This document shows positions 29,515-46,690 of a DNA stretch of 64,000 nt, in pieces (the stretch's first letter is position 1; each line of letters begins with the position of its first letter). The notes under the pieces are model-generated. The model saw only the letters and a list, made by a program, of their open reading frames with translations. It made no database searches and was not told where the DNA came from. Where the stretch lies: assembly GCF_016616885.1 (NCBI RefSeq), contig NZ_CP067102.1, positions 7,096,501 to 7,160,500 on the forward strand, given 5' to 3'. The DNA comes from Bradyrhizobium diazoefficiens (lineage in GTDB: Bacteria > Pseudomonadota > Alphaproteobacteria > Rhizobiales > Xanthobacteraceae). The position numbers and the translations under genes are program-made.

Positions 29515-30816
29515 TCATCGAACGAACGCAGGTTGAAGCGTCTGGAGTCGTCTGTCGGGAAGCCGATTCCAGGCACAAACCGTCCCCATGACGAACCAGA
29601 AGAACCATTGATATACGAGATAATCGATCACGTTATCCGAGTAGCACTCAACGAGGTATGACGCTGCAAACGTAGACATTATCAGCGTACCGCGCGGATC
29701 CGATCGACAACCTTCCTTCAATTTCGAGAATAGCGAAAGGAAAAGCCAACCGAAGGCAAGAACGCCCACAACGCCCATCTCAAAATAGATCTGCAGAAAG
29801 ACATTATGAGGCCCAACACCAGCTTCGTCGTTCGCCTCACGCGCGTAAGGAAAAAACGCTGGTACGTAGTGCACAAACGAATTCAAGCCATTGCCGACCA
29901 AAACGGCGGGATTCACCGCCATCCATTGCAGGGCGCTATCCCAGAGTAGCTGGCGCCAAGCAAGAGAATCGAGAGAGTGCCTATAGTCGTCGTCATACCA
30001 GCTAACGTCGAGCAATCTCTGTTCGACACCAGGTATAAGCATGATCAGAGGACACAGAAGAAGGAAACCGAGATATCGCCTATCCACAAGACCGACGAAA
30101 ACGGCAACAACAACCGCGCAAGCAATCCATGCGCTGCGCGTTTGTGTAAGCGCAATGAGGAGAACCAGCACGGGAAGGTACAACACCAGCAGCGGTCGCA
30201 CGTTCGGCGGCAGAGATATCCGATTTGAACTCAGCATGAACATGCCGAGAGCGAGTACGCCAACGAGGTAAAACGCGAAAATGTTGGGATGGGCAAATGT
30301 GCTCTGCAGCCTACCGCCAGCCTCCCCGTCGGAGAGCCCGAATACCAGTTCGATGAATGCATAGGCGACGGGTACGAAGGACGAGTACATGGCCGCAGTC
30401 AAGCACCGCAAGCCCCAGTCCGGCGATCGGACCAGCGCGAACGGGATTGAGAAAGCTGCAAAATAGCTGGCCAACCAGCCGACCGCTCTTGCGGCCGCCG
30501 CTTGCTCCGGTGAGAGCATCGCGGACGTTGAGGCAACCACGAAAACTCCCGCCCACATCGGCAGGGTAGCAGCTCCCACCAAGACCGGCTCTTGGATAAC
30601 GTACCAGAGGCCCAGACCGATCACGAGGGCGTTTACGGCACCACCGGGTCCGGCCTCCCCGCCGAGCACAGATCTTGCCAGGCCGAAAATCGGATCGCAT
30701 GATGGTCGTACGAGAACGATCGCCAGGACGAGATAAGATAACCTAAGGCAGCCCACGACGCAGAGCAGGAGGATGCTTAGAATCGCCACTATGACGATCA
30801 TTGCCTCTATTGGCAT
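29515..30816 (-). CDS. Wzy-type EPS polymerase (O-antigen ligase family)
   Basis: A 433-residue inner-membrane protein with about 11 hydrophobic segments. The family core is present: GRLQSTFAHPNIFAFYLVG, LTQTRSAWIACAV, a large periplasmic loop (VEQRLLDVSWYDDDYRHSLD) and VGPHNVFLQIYFEMGVVG, all as in Wzy_C/O-antigen ligase proteins. In a Wzx/Wzy pathway it joins lipid-linked repeats in the periplasm. As this locus has a Wzx flippase, polymerase is preferred to ligase. It is flanked on both sides by members of one secreted-protein family. Confidence 0.88.
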   Translation of the reverse strand: MPIEAMIVIVAILSILLLCVVGCLRLSYLVLAIVLVRPSCDPIFGLARSVLGGEAGPGGAVNALVIGLGLWYVIQEPVLVGAATLPMWAGVFVVASTSAMLSPEQAAAARAVGWLASYFAAFSIPFALVRSPDWGLRCLTAAMYSSFVPVAYAFIELVFGLSDGEAGGRLQSTFAHPNIFAFYLVGVLALGMFMLSSNRISLPPNVRPLLVLYLPVLVLLIALTQTRSAWIACAVVVAVFVGLVDRRYLGFLLLCPLIMLIPGVEQRLLDVSWYDDDYRHSLDSLAWRQLLWDSALQWMAVNPAVLVGNGLNSFVHYVPAFFPYAREANDEAGVGPHNVFLQIYFEMGVVGVLAFGWLFLSLFSKLKEGCRSDPRGTLIMSTFAASYLVECYSDNVIDYLVYQWFFWFVMGTVCAWNRLPDRRLQTLQPAFVR

Positions 30817-31025: not shown

Positions 31026-31322
31026 CAGAATTCCGGACTACTACGGATAGACGATTGACGCACTGCGCCAGACGTCGACTATCGATAAATGCGGGATTGT
31101 CTTCGTATTGACAAATCCGGGATTGTCTTCGGTCAGATCAGTTGTGAGGGGCGCGATGCACGCGACATTCCCCAGCGCCGCTTGTAGTTCCGTCGAAAAG
31201 TCCCACCTGCGCGCCGCTTCATCGGTTGCCATCGGTTTGCTGCGCGACGTTGTTCGGAAGCCGAGCTATCGGACCGGAGCCCTATCTCCCTATCACTGGC
31301 TTCGCAACCGTCAGGTCCTGAC
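31026..31322 (+). repeat. Duplicated segment, copy B (upstream element plus deacetylase 5' end)
   Basis: About 297 bases are a diverged direct copy of 34131-34399. The homology starts upstream of the genes (including the 35-bp element at 31035-31070) and ends in GCAACCGTCAGGT-TGAC. The coding part corresponds to the first 70 or so residues of the polysaccharide deacetylase gene. Copy B also has an internal 26-bp tandem repeat: GGGATTGTCTTCG at 31093-31105 and 31119-31131. The stretch 30817-31025, before it, holds no gene. Confidence 0.8.
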
Positions 31323-32367
31323 ACCGCAGAATATTCCAGCGCAGGTTAATAACCCCGCGGCGAGCTCGCACTTCGCTAGGTATCTCGCCTTGGGACTTGC
31401 GATCTTGATGGTTGTCCAGGGGGTTCTTATTTGGAATGCTCACGCATCCGACGATCCAGACGATCACACTCGACCGGTGTTTGGAGTGGGGAGATTGTTC
31501 TCTGCGGATAGTCCTTGGAACACACCTATAGATCCGTCGCGCGTCACGTACACTGCGCCACGCACGATAGAGAACCGTCAGTTTAGGGATACGGCCCTGG
31601 CGAACACTTGGATACAGGAGGAAGATCTTCTATTCAAAACTCCGGCAGATGCGCCCGTCCGAAAGTGGGACTACGAAACGTTCAATAATGGAGACAAGGA
31701 TGTTAATGCGGGTAGATTTTCCCATAGCGGCACCCTTAACCTCGCCACGCCAGAAAGTAAGATTACGCATGGGGGTGATGGATGGTTGATATTCACCGAC
31801 CTGGACGGCGTTCATTTTTGGGAGACGTGGGGCGCTCACTACGATGCCAAGACAAACACTTACCACGTTGCATATATTGTGAAGGGAAACCTGAAGAACG
31901 GGACGGGTTGGGGTAAAGACGGCGCGGGGGTCGGCATTCGAGCGGCGGGTGCATCGCTTCTTGGAGGTCTCATCCTTCCTGAGGAGCTGAATAACCTCTC
32001 GATCGAGCACGCCTTGTCGATGGATCTAGATTGGTCTCAGCTCAAGGAGGGAAAGGAGCCGACCGATCAATATGTGTTCCCTGCAGTGGCGCCCGACTCT
32101 GACAGTCTCACGGCCTATAAAGGCACGATTCCTATGGGCGCTCGTTTCGCTCTACCCCACGACGTCGATCTCTCGGCCGCCGGCCTCACGCCCGAGGGAC
32201 TCGCGGTCGCAAAAGCGTTCCAGAAATACGGGGGATACGTGACCGACGCGGCGGGCCACACCGCCTCAGTCGCTATGATCACTGGGGGAACAAAGCAGCA
32301 AATCGCTAATCTATATACCGACGCCAATTGGATACGCCAGCATCTCGTAATGGTCGTCCCCAAATAG
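31156..32367 (+). CDS. Membrane-anchored secreted protein of the same uncharacterised family, chimeric N-terminus
   Basis: From ATG 31156 (GAGGGG upstream), 403 residues. The first 56 or so residues are a copy of the deacetylase N-terminus (RAASSVAIGLLRDVVRKPSY). A membrane helix (YLALGLAILMVVQGVLIW) then exports a domain beginning FSADSPWNTPIDPS. Motifs shared with the protein at 27359-28431 include GGLILPEELNNLSIEHALS, an IPMGARFALP counterpart of its IPEGAIFRLP, and AVAKAFQKYGGYVTDAAG. The two are diverged members of one family on either side of Wzy. The family has no function that I know; polymer binding or cleavage is possible. Confidence 0.75.
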   Translation: MHATFPSAACSSVEKSHLRAASSVAIGLLRDVVRKPSYRTGALSPYHWLRNRQVLTPQNIPAQVNNPAASSHFARYLALGLAILMVVQGVLIWNAHASDDPDDHTRPVFGVGRLFSADSPWNTPIDPSRVTYTAPRTIENRQFRDTALANTWIQEEDLLFKTPADAPVRKWDYETFNNGDKDVNAGRFSHSGTLNLATPESKITHGGDGWLIFTDLDGVHFWETWGAHYDAKTNTYHVAYIVKGNLKNGTGWGKDGAGVGIRAAGASLLGGLILPEELNNLSIEHALSMDLDWSQLKEGKEPTDQYVFPAVAPDSDSLTAYKGTIPMGARFALPHDVDLSAAGLTPEGLAVAKAFQKYGGYVTDAAGHTASVAMITGGTKQQIANLYTDANWIRQHLVMVVPK

Positions 32368-32688: not shown

Positions 32689-34101
32689 ATGAGTGCTCAA
32701 TCCAACGTCTCTGAAGCTGCTTCACGAGTAACAATGCGCGAGCGCGTGATCGCTGCCTTGTGCGCTGTCGCCGCCACTGCGGCTCTCCTCGTGCCCGCAA
32801 TCGTCAACGGATATCCATTTATTTTTTGGGACACGGGCACCTACTTATTTTCCGCTATGCGCATGCAGGTTCCTCACGACCGGCCTGTCTTTTACAGCAT
32901 TTTCACTGCGTTGCTTCATTGGCGCCTTTCGCCTTGGCCGATTGTGATTGCGCAATCTGCATTGGTCGCAATCCTAATCCGGCTTGTCGCGAAAGCTGTC
33001 TTCAACATCGCAAGCGCGTGGGTAACGCCCATCGCAGCTATTGCGCTGGTATTTGGCTCAAGCCTGCCATGGTTTTCCGGGCAAATCGTGCCGGATATCT
33101 TCACCTCTGTACTAATGCTAGCGCTCTTGCTCATCGTCTTCGGCTGGGGACGGATGACGTTGGCGGAAAGATGGTCCGCCTTATGCATGGTCCCAGTTTG
33201 CGTGGCCGTCCACAATGCGAACCTTTTTGTTCCCCTCAGCGTCGTTCCCGTGATTGGCATCCTGCTTCTCGTGGGCTGGCGACCTGGTCCACAAGCGGCC
33301 CACCGAACGTTCTGGGTCGCGAGCGGTGTGGCGCTAGCGCTTGCGGCCTTGGTAAGCTCAAACTATGCCGCTCGCGGCAAACTCGTCCTATCATCTGCCT
33401 CCTCAACCCTCCTTCTTGCTAAGATGCTTGAAGATGGCCCCGCCATGGCGGTCTTAGAGCACGAATGTCCTGCAGCTTACCCGTTGCTATGCAGCCAGCT
33501 TCCGCTGTTGCAAGCGCACAAAGCGTCGGGCATCGAACCCACGCTCGCAGACTTCTTCCTGTGGGAAGGTCCGCTCGACAGTCTTGGCTGGTGGAAACCA
33601 GTAGAGCCAGAGGCATCGCAAGTGGTCAAAAAGGCTTTCGCACAGTTCTGGCGACAAGAGATACCGACCGCGCTTGCCAACGGCGCGCGCCAATTTTGGC
33701 ACCTTAAAACTGGTGATGGCTTGGTTTCAGACCCCGGTGTCTGGGCGACGGACGCCATTCGCGACTTGTTCGGCCAAAGCAGCCTGGCGGCGTATCAGGC
33801 GTCGCTGCAAGGGAAGGGCGAGCTGCAGTTTTCGTTGCTGAACGTAATGCACTTGGCTACGCTCGTAGTTTCATCTGGGGTCCTGGCATGGGCCGCAATT
33901 GCATCCTTCCGGACCGACCGGAAAGCTCTCCACGTCGCAGCTTTCATATTGGCGATGCTCGCAGGGCACGCTATCGCTATCGGGGCCCTTACGCCGCTCC
34001 ATGATCGCTATCAGAGCCGGGTGGTTTGGCTGATTCCGTTGCTCGCGACGCTCACCCTATGCCGACTGGCATTCAATGCGACTCCAAGCGCCGACCGATA
34101 G
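32689..34101 (+). CDS. Polytopic membrane protein, GT-C-like
   Basis: A 470-residue inner-membrane protein with about 10 hydrophobic segments. An early periplasmic-side acidic motif (NGYPFIFWDTGTYL) follows the first helix, and a large soluble loop occupies about residues 250-380. The early D-containing loop followed by many helices is the layout of GT-C glycosyltransferases, which use polyprenyl-phosphate sugars to decorate polymers outside the membrane. I cannot assign a Pfam family from sequence alone. Its position in the EPS locus supports a sugar-modifying role. Confidence 0.65.
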   Translation: MSAQSNVSEAASRVTMRERVIAALCAVAATAALLVPAIVNGYPFIFWDTGTYLFSAMRMQVPHDRPVFYSIFTALLHWRLSPWPIVIAQSALVAILIRLVAKAVFNIASAWVTPIAAIALVFGSSLPWFSGQIVPDIFTSVLMLALLLIVFGWGRMTLAERWSALCMVPVCVAVHNANLFVPLSVVPVIGILLLVGWRPGPQAAHRTFWVASGVALALAALVSSNYAARGKLVLSSASSTLLLAKMLEDGPAMAVLEHECPAAYPLLCSQLPLLQAHKASGIEPTLADFFLWEGPLDSLGWWKPVEPEASQVVKKAFAQFWRQEIPTALANGARQFWHLKTGDGLVSDPGVWATDAIRDLFGQSSLAAYQASLQGKGELQFSLLNVMHLATLVVSSGVLAWAAIASFRTDRKALHVAAFILAMLAGHAIAIGALTPLHDRYQSRVVWLIPLLATLTLCRLAFNATPSADR

Positions 34102-34399: not shown

Positions 34400-35386
34400 G
34401 TTGCGATGTTTCACCGCGTTCTGAAGCGAGACGATCCGCGCTGGGAGACAGCCTTATACTCATGGACGCTTCCCGACGACGTGTTCGATGAGTGTCTGAC
34501 GTTCTTTAGACGCCATTACGCGTTGGTTAAGCTTGATGACGTCAAGGCCTCGCTGGAAGGAACACGCCCACTCCCGCCAAGGAGCCTGCTGATTACGTTC
34601 GACGACGGCTATGCCGACAACAGCGAATACGCTCTGCCTTTGCTGCGAAAGCATCGGGTTCCCGCCACCGTCTTCATATCTTCGGACGTTATTGGGCGTA
34701 ACGAGCGGCTCTGGACTGAGGATCTTCTTTGGGCCTTCATGGAGGGGCGGCTTCATCAACGAGACCTTGTCAGCTTGTATGCGCTCCTCATGGGCGACAC
34801 TGCACGCGACGTCGAAGACTCGGAACTAATCTGGGAGATCGTGCGGCGCGGACCCGAGTTGGAGAACGCGCGCGTTGAAGCAGCGTTTTCCGCGCTCAAG
34901 GTCGACCTCCACCGGGTCGAACAGCCGCGCCAAATGTTGACCCGAAGCGAAATTCGGAACCTCACCGCAAACGGAATCTCCATCGGAGCGCATGGAAAAA
35001 CCCACACTGCGCTGACATTCTCATCTGACATTACAAGTGAGCTATGTTCGCCACGCGTGGTACTGGAGGACGTTGTAGCGTCGTATCATCAGCGCTCGGT
35101 TGATACGCTGTCCTTTCCGCATGGAGCGTATACCTCCGAGATCGTTGATCGCTCTCTCGCCGCGGGCTACGCGCTTGCATTCACCAGCGATGCTGAACTT
35201 TGCGTCCTGAAAAATGGCTTTCTGGCGAGCCCACTCGTCGGCCGCGTCGACGTCAACGGGCCGGGCATAGCTCCGACCGGCAAGCTTCGGCCCGAAATTC
35301 TGGCTCTCGCATTCTTCACTGCGCCGCGGGGACGTGCGGGGCGCGCGCTAAGGGCCGGCGCCCACTCAACGCGGGAGAACCGCTAG
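34211..35386 (+). CDS. Polysaccharide deacetylase (NodB domain)
   Basis: About 391 residues from ATG 34211 (ATG 34241 is also possible). After a 55-residue N-terminal segment ending in YHKVRNRQVL, the carbohydrate esterase 4 fold begins at TVAMFHRVL. Metal-binding motif 1 is TFDDGYADN, and motif 2 is GAHGKTHT with an H-x3-H pair. It would remove N- or O-acetyl groups from polysaccharide or its precursor. I see no signal peptide, as in related rhizobial EPS-locus proteins. Its stop TAG shares a base with the GTG start of the flippase gene, implying translational coupling. Confidence 0.87.
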   Translation: MRSVVRARWGMSLASRPRAVAKSHVCAASSAAFRLLRDVARKLSYQSGALSLYHKVRNRQVLTVAMFHRVLKRDDPRWETALYSWTLPDDVFDECLTFFRRHYALVKLDDVKASLEGTRPLPPRSLLITFDDGYADNSEYALPLLRKHRVPATVFISSDVIGRNERLWTEDLLWAFMEGRLHQRDLVSLYALLMGDTARDVEDSELIWEIVRRGPELENARVEAAFSALKVDLHRVEQPRQMLTRSEIRNLTANGISIGAHGKTHTALTFSSDITSELCSPRVVLEDVVASYHQRSVDTLSFPHGAYTSEIVDRSLAAGYALAFTSDAELCVLKNGFLASPLVGRVDVNGPGIAPTGKLRPEILALAFFTAPRGRAGRALRAGAHSTRENR

Positions 35387-36879
35387 TGCGCCTGCGCCAG
35401 GCAATGCTGATCTCGACCTTGCAACAGAACGCAACGTTGCTACTGACCTTTGGAACAGGCGTCGTCATTGCGCATCTGCTCACGCCGCGGGAAGCCGGCT
35501 CTTACACGGTGGCGATGGCGGCTTCCAACGTGGTCGCGGCGTTGAAGGACTCGGCTATTGGATCATACGTAATCAGCGCGCCCAAGCTTGACGACGCACT
35601 CTTGAGCACTGCATTCGGTTTGAGCCTCGCTATTGCCGCCTGTCTCACGATTGGATTGATCGGCTTGAGTTTCCCTCTGGCGAATTTTTATCAAGATCCA
35701 ACCATCGGCATATCGTTGAGGATTGTCGCCTTTGGACACCTCTGCTTTGCCGCGGCCCTTCCTGCCAGCGTTCGCCTGATGCGCGCCATGCGCTTCGGGT
35801 CGCTTCTCGCTATCGGCGTTGCCGCGGCCGCGGCCCAAAGCCTGACTTCGATCACCCTCGCCCTCGTGGGTCATGGAGCCGCCGCCCTGGCATGGGGTTC
35901 GCTTGCATCCTCGCTCGTTATGGCGGTCATGACGATGGCTTATCAACTCGATGCGATAAAATGCCGACCGACTCTGAGAGGTTCAGGCCGACTGATCGCC
36001 TTCGGCGGCTGGACGTCGGCGACGCTCCTTGTCGGATGCTCGGCGATGTCAGCGCCGGAGCTCATGATGGGGCGCGCCCTGGGACTCGCGAATGCTGCTC
36101 TGTTTGCGCGCGCCCAGAGCCTGGTTTCGGTCGTTGCAAACGGTCTTTTCGTCGGCATGACGCGCCCCCTCCTTCCGAACCTCAGCAAGCGCGACCATGA
36201 AGGCTTACCTTTGGCGCCACTTTACTTGCGCATCATTGAATCAATTACCGGACTTTCATGGCCGGCCTACGCCGTGCTGGCGATTTGGGCCGCACCTCTC
36301 GTGAGAACGATCTATGGGGAGGCGTGGAGCGTCGCAGGCGCTATGATGGTACCTATCGCGATCGCCCAAGCATTGACGTTCAGCGTTGCAGGCTATTACG
36401 ACGTCATGATCGTCAAGCGACGTCAAAGATTGCTCTTCCTTTCCGAATTCGCGGGAGCTCTCTTCGCGATCCTCGCACTCGGAGTTGGCGTGATGATCGG
36501 AATGGAGGCCGCGCTCTGGAGTTTGGTTTTGAGCAGCGCCCTCTGCGCAGCCTGCTACTCCTTCGTGCTCAAGGTCGTCATCGATTTGGCGCCCGGCGCG
36601 CTTTTTATGGCGTGGGGCCGAAGCCTGATACTGACCTTCATCGCCATCCCCGCCCCTCTCGCTTTTCGTTATCTTGACGCTCAGGCCCACGTGGACGTCA
36701 TGCTTCGATTTTCTGCATCGAGCGCAATCGCGGCGTTTATTTGGATCGCTGGCGTCATATTCATCCGGCACGAATTGGCTCTTCATATCGAGCCGCCGCT
36801 CAAGAAGGCGCTCGCGTCCGTCACGTTGCGCCTGCTCCCGCGCTTCCTGACAGCAGCCAAAAAAACGATGGGCCGTTGA
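35386..36879 (+). CDS. Wzx-type lipid-linked oligosaccharide flippase
   Basis: A 497-residue polytopic protein of the MOP exporter superfamily with 12-14 hydrophobic segments, starting at GTG 35386 with GGGAG 8 bases upstream. The N-terminus LISTLQQNATLLLTFGTGVV followed by AHLLTPREAGSYTVAMA is the usual start of polysaccharide-biosynthesis flippases. It moves undecaprenyl-linked repeats across the inner membrane to meet the Wzy polymerase (29515-30816). It is coupled to the deacetylase upstream, and a methyltransferase follows. Confidence 0.9.
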   Translation: MRLRQAMLISTLQQNATLLLTFGTGVVIAHLLTPREAGSYTVAMAASNVVAALKDSAIGSYVISAPKLDDALLSTAFGLSLAIAACLTIGLIGLSFPLANFYQDPTIGISLRIVAFGHLCFAAALPASVRLMRAMRFGSLLAIGVAAAAAQSLTSITLALVGHGAAALAWGSLASSLVMAVMTMAYQLDAIKCRPTLRGSGRLIAFGGWTSATLLVGCSAMSAPELMMGRALGLANAALFARAQSLVSVVANGLFVGMTRPLLPNLSKRDHEGLPLAPLYLRIIESITGLSWPAYAVLAIWAAPLVRTIYGEAWSVAGAMMVPIAIAQALTFSVAGYYDVMIVKRRQRLLFLSEFAGALFAILALGVGVMIGMEAALWSLVLSSALCAACYSFVLKVVIDLAPGALFMAWGRSLILTFIAIPAPLAFRYLDAQAHVDVMLRFSASSAIAAFIWIAGVIFIRHELALHIEPPLKKALASVTLRLLPRFLTAAKKTMGR

Positions 36880-40362: not shown

Positions 40363-41412
40363 ATGAAGCAGCACGCATTAGACGGGCGCCACATGCGTGG
40401 GAGCGAGTTGGAAGATCACCGCAATCCCGCGCTCGATGGTCTTCGCGCGATCAGCATCTGCCTCGTCCTGGCGACCCATCTTCTTCCCCTGGGACCGAAG
40501 GCTCTTCATCTGAATTCGACCGCTGGTCCGATGGGGATGAGTCTCTTTTTCGTCCTTTCGGGATATTTGATCCTCAGCACGCTTCGGTCGGCCCCGATCC
40601 CGGAATTCATCGTAAAACGGTTGGCTCGAATACTGCCGCTCGCCTATCTCTATATTCTGCTGGTCTTTATTTTGGGCGGTTTGAGCAAACAAGCGCTGCC
40701 TTACCATTTGGGGTTCGTCGTCAACTATCGACCCGACCAGATGACGCCTGTTACGGAGCATCTCTGGTCTTTGTGTGTCGAGGTTCACTTCTATGTCTTC
40801 GTGATGCTGCTCGCGGTGGGTGGCCGGAAGGCTTTCGTACTCGTCTGGCCTTGTTGTCTCGCCATCACCGCCATCCGCGTCATGGAAGGTGCTTACATTG
40901 ACGTTCCGACGCACCTGCGCGTAGACGAAATCTTGGCGGGCGCCTGTATTGCGACGTTGCCGATGCGCCGATTCCGCGCATTCGCAGCGCCGCTGGTCAT
41001 CTGGGTGCTGGCGGTCGGCGCCTGGTTCGGGACTTCTCATCCGGATAGCGGCTGGGTTCAATATCTGCGACCCTATGCGGCAGCTTTTCTGCTTGCAGCA
41101 ACGCTAGCTCAACCGCCCAATCGACTGACCGCCGTACTAAGCGGTCGGGCTCTTCGCTACATCGCCGCCGTTTCCTACGCTCTCTATGTCTTTCATCCGC
41201 TTGCGGCACACGGATGGTGGAATGACGCAAACGTCTGGCAGCGATATCTGCTCAAGCGGCCGTTAGGCTTTGCTCTCACGCTGGCTGCCGCTCACATTTC
41301 GACTTTCTACTGGGAGGCGATATGGATACAGGCCGCCAAGCGTTGGGGCCGTTCGAGGCGCACGGGGGCTCTGCAGTCCGTTGGACGACTGGAAAATGTC
41401 GCTGGAGAATAG
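40363..41412 (+). CDS. Acyltransferase 3 family (OafA/ExoZ type) membrane protein
   Basis: A 349-residue protein with about 10 membrane helices of the acyltransferase 3 family, which acetylates or succinylates exported sugars. The N-terminal catalytic signature ALDGLRAISICLVLATH is present, with the family's conserved His in helix 1, followed by SLFFVLSGYLIL and the KRLARILPLAYLY arginine motif. It probably O-acylates the EPS repeat, opposing the deacetylase at 34211-35386. ATG 40393 is an alternative start. Confidence 0.88.
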   Translation: MKQHALDGRHMRGSELEDHRNPALDGLRAISICLVLATHLLPLGPKALHLNSTAGPMGMSLFFVLSGYLILSTLRSAPIPEFIVKRLARILPLAYLYILLVFILGGLSKQALPYHLGFVVNYRPDQMTPVTEHLWSLCVEVHFYVFVMLLAVGGRKAFVLVWPCCLAITAIRVMEGAYIDVPTHLRVDEILAGACIATLPMRRFRAFAAPLVIWVLAVGAWFGTSHPDSGWVQYLRPYAAAFLLAATLAQPPNRLTAVLSGRALRYIAAVSYALYVFHPLAAHGWWNDANVWQRYLLKRPLGFALTLAAAHISTFYWEAIWIQAAKRWGRSRRTGALQSVGRLENVAGE

Positions 41413-41534: not shown

Positions 41535-44495
41535 TCATCGTTCTGTTTCTTGCGAACGCCCTGCCCGCGACAAATTGATGTAGGGGTTCGAAGCGAGCGG
41601 CTTGGAGCGGATTGTCGGGACTTTGATGATATCGTTCGGTTCGATGATAGTCGTCTCGTCTGCCGTGATCTCTCGCATGAGCTCGCCGTCCTTCCTCAGC
41701 AGTGTGACGCTAGGCCGCTCGCCTTTCTCCGCCGAGCGCTCCCGCGCCTCGGCCGGCGCGCCGAATTGCGCCTCTTTCAGCAGGTCGTCTGCTGTCTCGA
41801 TCCGCACTTGCACCTCCGCGATCTCATCCTTCGTCAGCTGCAGATCCCGCGTGTTCGTCCGGCTTCTCTCGAGAGCGCGTTCCCGAACCCGTTGCTCCGC
41901 CAAAGTGATGTTCTCTCCAGCTCTCACGATTTCCGTTTCGGCGGCCATCTGCTGGTTTGCGATCTGTGCGAGCGACCGTTCCAGGGCGAACAGCGTCGGC
42001 GCAAGGGCGAGGCCCCTCGCTGAGAGCGAACGAAGCTCGTCCAATTGATGTTCGATGGTGCCTTTCTCCTGCTTCAGCGCCTCGATCTGTCCGCGGAGCG
42101 AATCGATCTCACGCTGGTAGAGCGACTTGATATCTTTGAATGCCGATACTTCCGAGCGCGCCGTGTCGTTTTCCTGCGCGAGCGCCGCGCGTTCGCTTTC
42201 AATGATCGCGGAGATGGTGGCGTCGACCTGTTCATTCGAAAGCTCTGTCGGAATAGTAACACTCTCCTGCCCGGCAAGCGCCGCCGTCAGGCGTGCCGCG
42301 CGCACGACCAGGCGGTTCTGTTTCAGGGCCAACGTGCGGATGTCGCCTTTCGCGAGCGCAACGTCGCGATCTAACCGCAACAGGCGCAGACCACTACTAT
42401 CAGGGCGGTAATACCCGCCGGCGGCGCTGATCGCTTGAACAACGGTGAGGCCTGGCCGATACGGATATTCGCCAGGTCGTTGCACGTCGCCCAGGATTGA
42501 GAACGGGCGAAACTGAACAATCTCGACGGCCGTGAAAGGCCGTTCGATCCTGCCCCCGCGCTGCTGCAACCGGTCAGATATTTCCTGCGCCAGATCTTTG
42601 ACCTGGAGACCAGTGGCCTTGATGCCGCCGATCAGGGGCAGCGAAACCAGGCCATCCGTAGTCACAGTGTATTCGCCGCCGATGTCCGGCCATTCCTGCA
42701 CTTTGATCTTTAGCCGATCCGAGACGCCAAGCCTGTACTCGTCTCCGAAAGCCGGCGACACAGCAAGGGCCAGAGCGAAACCCGAGACAATCGAAATTTC
42801 GCAAAACCATTTCCATAGCCGGCCTTTGCCCTCCAAAGCGTCGCGGGCCGGCCACTGCTCACCACGCGCATCCGGATCAGGCGTGGCCCACGGGGTCTTG
42901 TTTATGACCGTGCCAAGAATCTTGTCCCGAACGGGTCCCAGTGACTGCAGCGATTGCTCAAGCTGAACTTCCGACGTGCGCCCCCATTCCACAACGATCA
43001 GCAACTCGTCGACAATCTGACCCGCAGAGCGGACGTCGGCGACGGGGCTCAGCGCAGGTAGATCGAGAATAACCCATTCGTAACCGCACTCGCCGGACGC
43101 TGTGATTGCGTGAACTAGATTGTGCCACTGCATGTCGATGTTGCCAACCACATGCCCGCTCGGCAAGAAGTCGAGATTGGGACGAACTTCCGCCCGGATG
43201 ACTTCGTCCGGAGCAGCTGAGCCTCGCAGCAACTGGTAAAGGCCTTGCGTTTCGCTTGGCGTCAGACTGTTCGAAAGCGCCGCAGTCTTCGATGCATCGA
43301 CGAGAAGAACGCGCGAGCCATCTCCAGCGATAAGTCCGGCCCAGTGCGCTGCGAACGTCGACTTGCCCTCTCCGCAGCGACACGATGTTATGCCCACAAT
43401 GTGAGGGACGTCCCCGCGCCGTTCGAGGACCGCCGATCGCGCACGCCGCAGCACTGTGCCCCGCAAGGTAGAACCCAATTCCGGATCGGCGTAATGCAAG
43501 GTGCGCGCATAGGCATGGGGAGAGAGCTTCTGAAGCATCCAAGCGCCGAACCGGCCGCCACCTGGCCATCGTTTTGGCTCTCGCAAAGCGGGCCGGTCCA
43601 TCATTCGCGGCAAATACCCAAAGCACTCGGCCGACGTCATCGCTAGCTGCTCGGCAGTGCGCACACGTCGATCAAAAAGCACGATTGCGAGCCCAACGCT
43701 CACACCCAGTGCGGCACCAAGGACGGCTGCTAACGCGGACATGACCCCGGCCGTCGGCCCGTCTTTGGAGCCAGGGGGAACCGCCTCGCTGATGATTCGA
43801 GCCGTAGGACCCAATACCTTGATACGTTCCCTCACTGCTGCGCTCGTCGTGACGACGGAACTTGTGTCGTTTTGCTCTTGCACGAACGATTCCGCGATCT
43901 CGTTGGTCAGCCTCGCAGCATCCTCCGCAGTCAGGGCTTTAGCTCGCACTGCAATGATTTGGCTGGTGCCGACCCGGTTGACAGTGATGTTGGATTTCAG
44001 GGCCGCCAGCGCCGTCTGCCTTCTTGACGTTTCGGAGCTCGTTCGTTCCGGCGCAAACATCTGCAACAGCCCAAGATCGCGGATGCTACGTGATTTCGGC
44101 AAGATCAGTTCTATTTCCTCCAATCCAAGCCGGTCGACGGCCCTTTCAAGCACCCTGCTGGACTTCGCCATTTCGATTGCGCTCTGGACCAGCGAGTTCT
44201 CGACCAGCAGCTGCGTAACGACCGCATCCGGGCCTGACTGTTGCAGCGTGGTGTTCGAAATCAACAGTTCGGAAGAAGCGCTGAACGCGGTCGTTCTGAG
44301 CAGGACATAAGCAACACTCGCCAACCACACCATGACGGCGCCAGCAAGCATCAAACGAACAATCATCCGCCCCTGCTGACGAATCTTCGCAAGATTGATT
44401 CTGAAACCGATCCCGTCACGCCCGGGCTCCGGCGCAATGGATCGCATTGCCGGTTCGAATAGGACTGAGCGCTGACTCTTGGTCGAATCGAGCAT
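41535..44495 (-). CDS. Fused EPS co-polymerase (Wzc/ExoP-like) and export protein (Wza/ExoF-like)
   Basis: A single 986-residue frame from ATG 44495 (AGGAG 8 bases upstream). Residues about 44-66 and 249-274 are membrane helices bracketing a Wzz-like periplasmic domain, with the co-polymerase AVPPGSKDGP motif before the second. About 360-530 is a BY-kinase-like ATPase: Walker A CGEGKST, A' VLLVDAS (the usual second Asp is absent) and Walker B WVILDLP. No tyrosine cluster follows. At 564-583 a third hydrophobic segment, resembling a signal peptide (GFALALAVSPAFG), leads into an outer-membrane polysaccharide export/SLBB region (YRLGVSDRLKIKVQEW; GDVQRPGEYPYRPG), then an ExoF-like coiled coil. 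The two parts are normally separate genes. Internal initiation at TTG 42836 is possible. Confidence 0.85.
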   Translation of the reverse strand: MLDSTKSQRSVLFEPAMRSIAPEPGRDGIGFRINLAKIRQQGRMIVRLMLAGAVMVWLASVAYVLLRTTAFSASSELLISNTTLQQSGPDAVVTQLLVENSLVQSAIEMAKSSRVLERAVDRLGLEEIELILPKSRSIRDLGLLQMFAPERTSSETSRRQTALAALKSNITVNRVGTSQIIAVRAKALTAEDAARLTNEIAESFVQEQNDTSSVVTTSAAVRERIKVLGPTARIISEAVPPGSKDGPTAGVMSALAAVLGAALGVSVGLAIVLFDRRVRTAEQLAMTSAECFGYLPRMMDRPALREPKRWPGGGRFGAWMLQKLSPHAYARTLHYADPELGSTLRGTVLRRARSAVLERRGDVPHIVGITSCRCGEGKSTFAAHWAGLIAGDGSRVLLVDASKTAALSNSLTPSETQGLYQLLRGSAAPDEVIRAEVRPNLDFLPSGHVVGNIDMQWHNLVHAITASGECGYEWVILDLPALSPVADVRSAGQIVDELLIVVEWGRTSEVQLEQSLQSLGPVRDKILGTVINKTPWATPDPDARGEQWPARDALEGKGRLWKWFCEISIVSGFALALAVSPAFGDEYRLGVSDRLKIKVQEWPDIGGEYTVTTDGLVSLPLIGGIKATGLQVKDLAQEISDRLQQRGGRIERPFTAVEIVQFRPFSILGDVQRPGEYPYRPGLTVVQAISAAGGYYRPDSSGLRLLRLDRDVALAKGDIRTLALKQNRLVVRAARLTAALAGQESVTIPTELSNEQVDATISAIIESERAALAQENDTARSEVSAFKDIKSLYQREIDSLRGQIEALKQEKGTIEHQLDELRSLSARGLALAPTLFALERSLAQIANQQMAAETEIVRAGENITLAEQRVRERALERSRTNTRDLQLTKDEIAEVQVRIETADDLLKEAQFGAPAEARERSAEKGERPSVTLLRKDGELMREITADETTIIEPNDIIKVPTIRSKPLASNPYINLSRAGRSQETER

Positions 44496-45400
44496 CAAAC
44501 AAACTCCTGCGTTGATGCTGCGAAAGCGTGTCGATGCTATGTTCGCGCATCCGTTGCCAATATTTGCTCGGCTCCTGAAGAGTTGCCTAAACCGTCTCCA
44601 ATTGTCCGACGGGAGGGCCGAGGTTGGTTCTCGCCGTCGGCGGAGCAAGCCGCTTCAGCGCGCCCCTTTTGCGCATCGCAAAGTGCGGCCGGCTGCGAAT
44701 CGGGATGATCTGCTCCTTTTTACAGCGGGTTTTCAGCACACGGGACAAGCTGGTCAGCCGCGCCGCCGCGAGTTTCCATAGTCAGTAGAGCGAAAATGCC
44801 ACCCCCGAAGCGAGCGCAGCGATGCGAGCACCACCGAGACGCGCGACTGCGCCTTTGCTTGTACGCATAGAACAGCTCTCCGGCGAGAATCCGGTCAACG
44901 TCGCCGCGTCGCTGTGTCGATTCTCGACAACGACAGCAGCGACTACGGTCGACGTACGGATATTAAGCGAAAGGTGTTGGATTGGCCAGAATTGCACTCA
45001 TCACGCGTCGCGAACGAAACGATGACGACAGGCGGCGCGACGCGACAATCACTCCAAAGTAGATAGTCCTTTCGAATAGTCCCGAAGGCCGCTCGGATTG
45101 CCGCATAGTCGAAGATGGCCTCGAGTTCGGAGCTGACGACGGCGGCTTACTTCTCGCCGCGTGCGGCAGCTTTATTCAAGCCGATTGTCAGCGGCCGGCC
45201 TCGGATTAGTCAGGATGGGTCGGTCCTCCATCCGTGAGAGCCGATATTTCAAGCCGCCGTGCTGGTTAGATTGCACATCACTCCATCACGCTGAATCACG
45301 GCTCGGTGGAGTGGCCTAGTCGGTTTGGTTTGACCGCGCGAAGCGCCGGCGATTTACGCCGGTTTGGGGTTGACCGACAATCAATGTGCAGGAGACTGTC
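44496..45400. other. Long intergenic region, no gene seen
   Basis: About 900 bases between the divergent co-polymerase and WecG-like genes. The open frame of the former extends to 44648, but without family similarity. The remainder has scattered short frames with no ribosome binding sites. A regulatory region for two divergent EPS operons is the simplest reading; I could not define operators. Confidence 0.45.
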
Positions 45401-46690
45401 GTGACCATTGCCCTGCAATATGGACCGACTTCAAACGTCCCACGATGCGACGCTCAAAGACCGATTGCACCCGACTTTTCGCGGCCGGTTTACTGTCTCC
45501 AGGGGCTAGTATGCGATGTGGTGACGATGGAGGAGGCAACTCAACGACTCCTCCTGTCGATTAAAGAGGCGCGCCGGTGCAACGTCGCCACGCCAAACGC
45601 AAGCTTCCTGCGAATGATACGGTCGGATCCGGATTTTAGAGACGCCGTGCTCGCCAGCGATCTTTCCGTGATTGATGGCATGCCGCTTGTTTGGCTTGCA
45701 CGCGCGCTAGGTATCTCCGTCCCTCATCGCGTATGCGGATCAGATCTGTTTGACGCACTGATGCGTCTGCGTCGCTCGGGCGACCGGACCAGCGCCTTCT
45801 TCTTCGGTGCAACCGATGAAGTCGGCCGACGCGTACGCGAACGCCTCAACGCGGGCACGTCTGGCGTCCGCTGCGCTGGCGCCTACGCGCCCGGATTCGG
45901 CACTGTTGAATCCATGAGCGATCCTAGAATTTTCCGTATCATCAATCAAGCGGCTCCCGATCTATTGGTCGTATCGGTCGGAGCTCGCAAAGGGCTTTTG
46001 TGGCTCAAGCGAAACGAGCATCTGCTTTCAAGCCCTGTGATCTGCAACCTCGGTGCGACGATCCATTTTGTCGCCGGAAGCATCAAGCGCGCACCCGTTT
46101 TCTTTCAGCGTCATGGGCTCGAATGGCTCTGGCGGATCAAGGAAGAGCCAGCGCTTTGGAGGCGGTACGCTCTCGATCTCGCGACGCTGATATCGGTGTT
46201 GGTGGGCCAGATCGTACCATACCTCGTCAAGCGCGCGTTGCACAAGCTATCTGCGGCGCAGCCCTCAACGCCACGCTTGCAGCATTATCATGACGAAACG
46301 GCTGAGGTGTTGAAGTTTTCCGGCGCTTGGACGGAAGACAATCTCGCGCCGGCGCGCTCGGGTCTTGCGGCGGCGACACAGAGAGCGAGCAACCTCGTGT
46401 TAGACCTTGAAGGCGTAACGTTTGTCGACGCCTCCTTCTTGGGCCTGGTGCTGGTTGCGTACGGGTATCAGCGGCGAATGCAACGCGGCTTTTTCCTTAG
46501 TGCATCGAGTCGACGAGTTAAGAGCATGATGCGCTTGAATGGCTGCGGCTTTTTGCTCTCTCCCGAACGAACGCGTACGAAACCAATTCGACACCGTTGG
46601 TCCGTTTCCACGCACAGCCTGGGCGTCCGCAAACTCTGGCAGACGATCGCCAACCACGGGGAACTCTGGGGCAATTTCCGCCACCACTAA
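45401..46690 (+). CDS. WecG/TagA/CpsF glycosyltransferase with C-terminal STAS domain
   Basis: A 429-residue protein starting at GTG 45401, with AGGAG 6 bases upstream (an in-frame ATG at 45386 overlaps the binding site). Residues about 25-260 are a WecG/TagA transferase (TPNASFLRMIRSDPDFRDAV; SDLSVIDGMPLVWLARALG with the conserved Asp), which transfers a sugar to a polyprenyl-linked acceptor. The usual G-x-PKQE motif is replaced by VGARKGLLWL. Residues about 300-395 are a STAS domain (LVLDLEGVTFVDASFLGLVL), as in anti-sigma antagonists. It lies 8 bases before the GT2 gene and is probably co-transcribed with it. Confidence 0.87.
   Translation: MTIALQYGPTSNVPRCDAQRPIAPDFSRPVYCLQGLVCDVVTMEEATQRLLLSIKEARRCNVATPNASFLRMIRSDPDFRDAVLASDLSVIDGMPLVWLARALGISVPHRVCGSDLFDALMRLRRSGDRTSAFFFGATDEVGRRVRERLNAGTSGVRCAGAYAPGFGTVESMSDPRIFRIINQAAPDLLVVSVGARKGLLWLKRNEHLLSSPVICNLGATIHFVAGSIKRAPVFFQRHGLEWLWRIKEEPALWRRYALDLATLISVLVGQIVPYLVKRALHKLSAAQPSTPRLQHYHDETAEVLKFSGAWTEDNLAPARSGLAAATQRASNLVLDLEGVTFVDASFLGLVLVAYGYQRRMQRGFFLSASSRRVKSMMRLNGCGFLLSPERTRTKPIRHRWSVSTHSLGVRKLWQTIANHGELWGNFRHH

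Follow-up and report, generated by a model that had tools for sequence, protein, structure and literature searches.

In Escherichia coli, the polysaccharide co-polymerase (PCP) Wzc and the outer-membrane polysaccharide export (OPX) protein Wza are two proteins, of which the former features extended periplasmic arms and is an active bacterial tyrosine (BY) kinase with a tyrosine tail. Active BY kinases carry the pattern DxDxR in their Walker A' motif. Besides, single-chain co-polymerases of the PCP-2 type with a BY pseudokinase have already been named, e.g., S. meliloti SMc01795, in PMC12004946. OPX proteins are divided into classes including a class 3 or alphaproteobacterial (outer membrane auxiliary, OMA) ExoF type (excerpts of PMC9603273), and alphaproteobacterial OPX proteins carry a coiled coil homologous to HlyD (excerpts of PMC2850547). 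Short OPX proteins, according to parts of PMC9601211, are thought to pair with co-polymerases having extra-long periplasmic helices. In contrast to the two proteins of E. coli, a single gene (41535..44495, minus strand) encodes a fused PCP-OPX protein of 986 amino acids in the stretch of 64,000 nucleotides of Bradyrhizobium diazoefficiens (contig NZ_CP067102.1) analyzed here, referred to as the window.

The frame starts with an ATG at 44495, its stop codon ends at 41535, and upstream of the ATG it stays open for 51 further codons up to a TTG. Above the Pfam cut-offs, AAA_31/BcsQ (residues 366-520), Poly_export (585-659) and SLBB (666-706) were matched, together with a Wzz match at residues 47-122 below threshold, and fold searches returned Wzc, HlyD-type and OPX structures among the matches listed. 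The co-polymerase half (residues 1-540; 42876..44495, minus strand, as all parts of the gene) comprises a first transmembrane helix (TM1, about 44-66), a periplasmic domain (about 67-248), a second helix (TM2, about 250-274) and a BY-kinase-fold ATPase (361-534), i.e., the order of PCP-2 proteins such as Wzc and ExoP with two transmembrane helices around a Wzz-type periplasmic domain. A linker (residues 538-556; 42828..42884), which is modeled with low confidence and is the fastest part to diverge, leads to the former OPX signal peptide (residues 557-585; 42741..42827) with the n-region KGRLWKWF, an uncharged run of 14 residues and a candidate signal peptidase I site, AFG↓DEY. The OPX half (residues 585-986; 41538..42743) features Poly_export (PES) followed by SLBB, as is typical of the family, then a HlyD/LipC-like hairpin (about 703-923) and C-terminal strands (930-959). 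An earlier note on this DNA had described a single 986-residue frame of Wzz/Wzc-like and Wza/ExoF-like parts, which is borne out by the frame, by Pfam and by fused homologues. Likewise, its view of the fusion as topologically sensible holds, as the cytosolic ATPase end precedes an internal N-in signal.

A search of 5.8 billion proteins, in which 7991 candidates were scored, 260 passed and 120 of these 260 were listed, revealed fused relatives in 10 of the 120 matches listed (P0002-P0011; 983-1117 amino acids), with a Poly_export domain in none of the other 110. Proteins consisting of OPX alone lay outside the length limits of this search; a search with the OPX half returned split OPX proteins, the nearest at 83% identity. 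Window-like fused clusters (P0002-P0006) are 99, 92, 89, 82, and 74% identical to the window protein, and a second fused branch (P0007-P0011) is 51-54% identical. P0002, at 99%, comes from another record than the window. The architecture that was to be sought in other genomes thus exists, and the fusion is not unique to the window, with nine more fused clusters besides the near-identical P0002. An assembly error or a decaying gene would fit the fused form being the minority state, yet it is very improbable: the five window-like clusters stay open through the joint down to 74% identity with conserved domains on both sides, their sources are of two kinds (lgn, jgi), and three of the four genomes compared have kept the gene cluster. 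Since fused relatives make up 10 of the 120 matches listed, a sequencing error is rejected, and the stop codon suspected to be hidden at 42840-42900 finds no support in P0002-P0006. Two split co-polymerases among these 110 (P0096 and P0097) carry at their ends about 22 residues resembling the first residues of mature OPX and look like partial or broken fusions.

The reading that we prefer, with a probability of roughly one half, is a recurrent fusion of a PCP-2 pseudokinase co-polymerase and an OPX protein that would be synthesized as a precursor open to cleavage. In an exopolysaccharide cluster of the Wzx/Wzy type, two genes that overlap or adjoin would have been joined at their stop/start overlap, and the resulting polytopic precursor would present TM1, the periplasmic domain, TM2 and the cytosolic ATPase, followed by the old OPX signal peptide. 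This segment would serve as an internal signal sending the OPX part to the periplasm, signal peptidase I would most likely still cut at AFG↓DEY, and the two mature parts might assemble much as in split relatives, with equal synthesis built in. The fusion is perhaps tolerated because the tyrosine tail, which docks into the neighboring subunit in active kinases, may already have been lost in this co-polymerase family.

In split relatives the OPX protein begins with a signal peptide, which allowed a comparison of the fused segment with 113 split OPX proteins (7 of 120 rows were dropped as the anchor motif was missing or lay within the first 20 residues). The run without charged residues, Pro, Asn, Gln, or His comprises 12-17 residues in the window and the ten fused clusters, with a mean of 14.3 in the 113 split proteins. 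The best 19-residue hydropathy amounts to 1.5-1.8 for the window together with P0002-P0005, 2.1 for P0006 and 2.0-2.5 for P0007-P0011, the means of the split rows being 1.81 for the first branch (31 of 32 rows used) and 2.23 for the second (22 of 22), and the values of TM1 and TM2 2.3 and 2.5. Segment length and hydropathy thus match the signal peptides of split relatives and indicate no drift to a membrane helix in either branch. A strict A/V-x-A/G site only a few residues away from the mature domain, which is a simple rule of our own, was present in all ten fused clusters and in 106 of the 113 split proteins, and in 24% of scans in mature OPX sequence; in the window the site AFG↓DEY, with the cut before Asp585, was found by eye. 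As the fused rows are related and the background is 24%, the retained site is supportive and no proof. Between the window and P0002-P0006, 14-18 of 19 residues of the h/c-region are common (74-95%), and in the linker (residues 537-556) identity drops to 11 of 20 with P0005 and 7 of 20 with P0006. The predicted local distance difference test score (pLDDT) falls below 50 at residues 537-561.

Several observations weigh against a cut precursor. The hydropathy of the second fused branch reaches 2.5 and equals that of TM2, as it does in its split kin, and AlphaFold draws a helix of 23 residues at 555-577, with low confidence. The h/c-region is no better conserved than the adjoining domains, and retention of the site could reflect shared ancestry instead of selection, the fused groups being close relatives. 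Moreover, signals inside a polytopic protein are less often followed by cleavage than those at an N-terminus. A likeness counted in favor of cleavage is FbcH, the cytochrome b-c1 polyprotein, in which a polytopic membrane protein and a periplasmic partner are joined via an internal signal, although the proteins are unrelated to those of the window. FbcH of Bradyrhizobium japonicum is reportedly cut at this signal. A fusion of this kind occurs in the window genome (L064, 160-2223), with all domains in one 688-residue frame, and as far as sequence features go, the PCP-OPX protein shares the FbcH-type arrangement of an internal signal with a signal peptidase I-type site between two parts.

Alternatively, the chain may stay whole, which is the less probable case: the old signal would become a third membrane helix, the OPX ring would be anchored in the inner membrane with its HlyD-like hairpin pointing towards the outer membrane, and both parts would assemble 1:1. 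HlyD-type adaptors are located at the inner membrane. A hairpin like theirs is present in the OPX half, as is known from alphaproteobacterial OPX proteins (excerpts of PMC2850547), which speaks for an uncut chain. Nevertheless, the segment does not exceed the signal peptides of split kin in length or hydrophobicity, the cleavage motif is kept, and only about 10-15 residues would separate the membrane segment from the first OPX strand (residue 594). The OPX ring of the E. coli complex is located on top of the co-polymerase arms, unlike the geometry of an uncut chain. An extended version, which we consider doubtful, is that of a single-chain trans-envelope exporter, whose uncut fusion would anchor the OPX ring beside the co-polymerase, with the HlyD-derived hairpin as an adaptor resembling type I secretion; such a covalent, kinase-free machine would replace docking controlled by phosphorylation and would have arisen several times in the genus. 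The earlier note had taken the former signal peptide as a third membrane helix and had derived a fixed 1:1 complex. Both remain unproven, as in length, hydrophobicity and cleavage motif the segment is still like the signal peptides of split relatives, so that the chain may be cut there.

Two proteins made by a ribosome restart inside the frame represent a further, improbable explanation. In its favor, each of the five clusters of the second fused branch (P0007-P0011) has retained a Met at the position at which split OPX proteins start (AMIKRR/K.., AMAKRR.., AMTKRR..). Against this, no ATG occurs in window codons 491-620, and the residue of P0006 aligned with the TTG at 42836 (codon 554), at which internal initiation had been suspected, is Pro (by eye). 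This TTG is real, but no AGGAGG-like stretch was seen by eye in the 20 bases before it, so that the suspected start lacks a Shine-Dalgarno-like sequence.

If cut, as preferred here, the product would represent a bacterial polyprotein combining a new pair of partners and would illustrate how little it takes to fuse overlapping genes that have a signal peptide between them. If joined, co-polymerase and exporter would be held in a fixed ratio and geometry, and structural studies of polysaccharide export, whose two parts normally come apart, would gain a natural construct. In either case, the pseudokinase co-polymerase would tolerate a blocked C-terminus, which an active kinase with a tyrosine tail probably could not. 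The accessible portions of the literature on the fusion and its families describe no PCP-OPX fusion, which does not establish its absence from print. What would be new is the PCP-OPX pair in one chain, recurrent within one genus; each part and the pseudokinase type are known.

Among 265 genomes of the genus, the locus was found in ten (E <= 1e-80), of which only the window genome is fused and nine are split. The claim that orthologues are always split, named beforehand as a refutation of the fusion, thus fails as worded because fused clusters exist; nonetheless, split genes are the usual state. A first scan of 195 genomes (E <= 1e-60) had already matched six of the nine split genomes and four more with a match to the OPX half only, at 36-37% identity; the first scan of genome contigs with the single protein as query gave no match. 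Four named Bradyrhizobium loci are likewise split, three of them probably identical with those of G058, G096, and G222. Across the phylum, 89 of 398 genomes matched, with both halves in one match in the window genome only (at most two candidates scored per genome).

Junctions of split loci were measured to the first possible ATG, a start that is itself unproven. Three of the nine split genomes (G054, G058, and G223) feature an ATGA overlap, with G054 being the closest in sequence to the window, and two (G027 and G096) an overlap of 23 bases. G186 has its ATG directly behind the stop codon, and in G222 12 bases intervene; as the two genes share a frame in both genomes, the parts are divided there by nothing but a single stop codon. 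A gap of 1 base occurs in G256 and of 82 bases in G165. At L009 (TAG) and L029 (TGA), a lone stop codon stands between split co-polymerase and OPX genes of common frame, one mutation, or readthrough, away from fusion. At L038 (481-2778), the OPX frame is open for 766 amino acids, with a long low-complexity N-terminal stretch that is probably non-coding. A candidate fusion outside the genus, on a plasmid of Rhizobium sp. 007 (match over residues 48-973), was dismissed, since it consists of two frames with about 85 bases and stop codons between. Eight plasmid records covered at least 80% of the query, and all six examined carry separate frames. In Aminobacter niigataensis OPX precedes the co-polymerase, in R. 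gallicum M101 (H5) the co-polymerase is frameshifted, and the annotation of Aminobacter sp. MSH1 (H3 and H4) shows two separate features.

At the junction of the window, CTATGG (codons 560-561, in frame; 42813..42818, minus strand) stands where split relatives such as G054 have the ATGA stop/start overlap. Compared with G054 (ACATGACCAGAAAA), the window sequence CTATGG--AAATGG has lost the TGA and is shifted in frame by two bases, and it holds neither stop nor start at the place of the overlap in the three ATGA pairs. The protein ends of nearer split relatives (..KGQL, ..GQL, ..GQP; OPX start MTG or MIG) imply a similar NNATGA overlap. The joint itself is seen in the sequence, and we infer that small changes at the stop/start overlap united the halves. 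P0007-P0011 still contain the old OPX start Met inside the chain, and their joint differs from that of the window.

Trees of 94 co-polymerase and 131 OPX rows each require at least four changes between the fused and the split state, and a single origin of all fusions is rejected by both. Judged from these trees, several changes of state took place, more likely gains than losses given that the split state is general, and part of them could be losses. In smaller, more careful trees, the window group and P0006 as one clade are rejected by the approximately unbiased (AU) test (p 1e-4 for the co-polymerase, p 8.7e-4 for the OPX half). A clade of the window and P0002-P0005 has p 0.033 against it in the co-polymerase half and is present, unsupported (75/43), in the best OPX tree. 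P0006 resembles the window in its joint and signal (17 of 19 h/c residues), and therefore a short fused segment may have moved by recombination, spreading one joint.

The co-polymerase half of the window possesses Walker A and the Walker B Asp, and its Walker A' motif reads VLLVDASKT. Of 93 relatives examined, 76 yielded the Walker A' motif (66 of 83 split and ten of ten fused; 17 split ones unassessed), and every one of these 76 lacks its second Asp. No Tyr occurs in residues 534-566, before the joint, and the last 40 amino acids of 83 split relatives contain no Tyr in 51 cases, one in 26 and two in 6. Among the four paralogues of the same genome, the tail is Tyr-rich in L002 and L003, contains a single Tyr in L008 and none in L006, and a regex scan for DxDxR fitted one of the four, L003 (VILIDADLR). 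The designation as a kinase is accordingly not upheld, the tyrosine tail and the second Asp being absent from split relatives as well, and the half is probably a pseudokinase of a kind already described (parts of PMC12004946). As described there, EcpK/EpsV, HfsB/HfsA, and SMc01795 share the kinase fold without a tyrosine tail, whereas EcpK lacks all Walker motifs and none of them is described as joined to an OPX protein.

The OPX half shares Poly_export and SLBB with class 3 or alphaproteobacterial ExoF-type proteins, likewise without a predicted Wza_C helix, although these are separate proteins (excerpts of PMC9603273), and its hairpin shares the HlyD-homologous coiled coil of alphaproteobacterial OPX proteins (excerpts of PMC2850547). 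Neither of two predicted models, both of middling confidence, contains an outer-membrane-spanning helix after the last strand (956-959), the tail having a pLDDT below 50, and no lipoprotein Cys is present at the AFG↓DEY site; class 1 (Wza) with its C-terminal helix is thus not indicated. Of the previous designation as an outer-membrane exporter, the OPX identity stands, and the membrane-spanning part calls for caution. Among 20 neighboring genes, no family of outer-membrane beta-barrels, the partners of class 3 OPX proteins, was detected by Pfam, with four of the 20 lacking any match and some small frames unscanned. The co-polymerase has about 182 periplasmic residues, in contrast to the extended arms of Wzc, and the OPX half a long hairpin, so that in the predicted models length compensation looks reversed.

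The surrounding cluster contains Wzx, Wzy_C, glycosyltransferase, acyltransferase, and deacetylase genes. The fused gene is flanked by a glycosyltransferase of the WecG/TagA/CpsF type with a C-terminal STAS domain (45386..46690, plus strand) and an acyltransferase (40363..41412, plus strand), both conserved neighbors; further members are a Wzx-type flippase (Polysacc_synt_3; 35200..36879, plus strand) and a Wzy_C protein of the polymerase or ligase type (29515..30816, minus strand). Of four genomes compared in gene order, G054, G222, and G058 possess the same cluster with the pair between the WecG-STAS and acyltransferase genes, and in G186 the neighbors of the pair differ. Two cluster proteins (32689-34101 and 31108-32367, both plus strand) have no Pfam or NCBIfam match, the former looking like a polytopic membrane protein.
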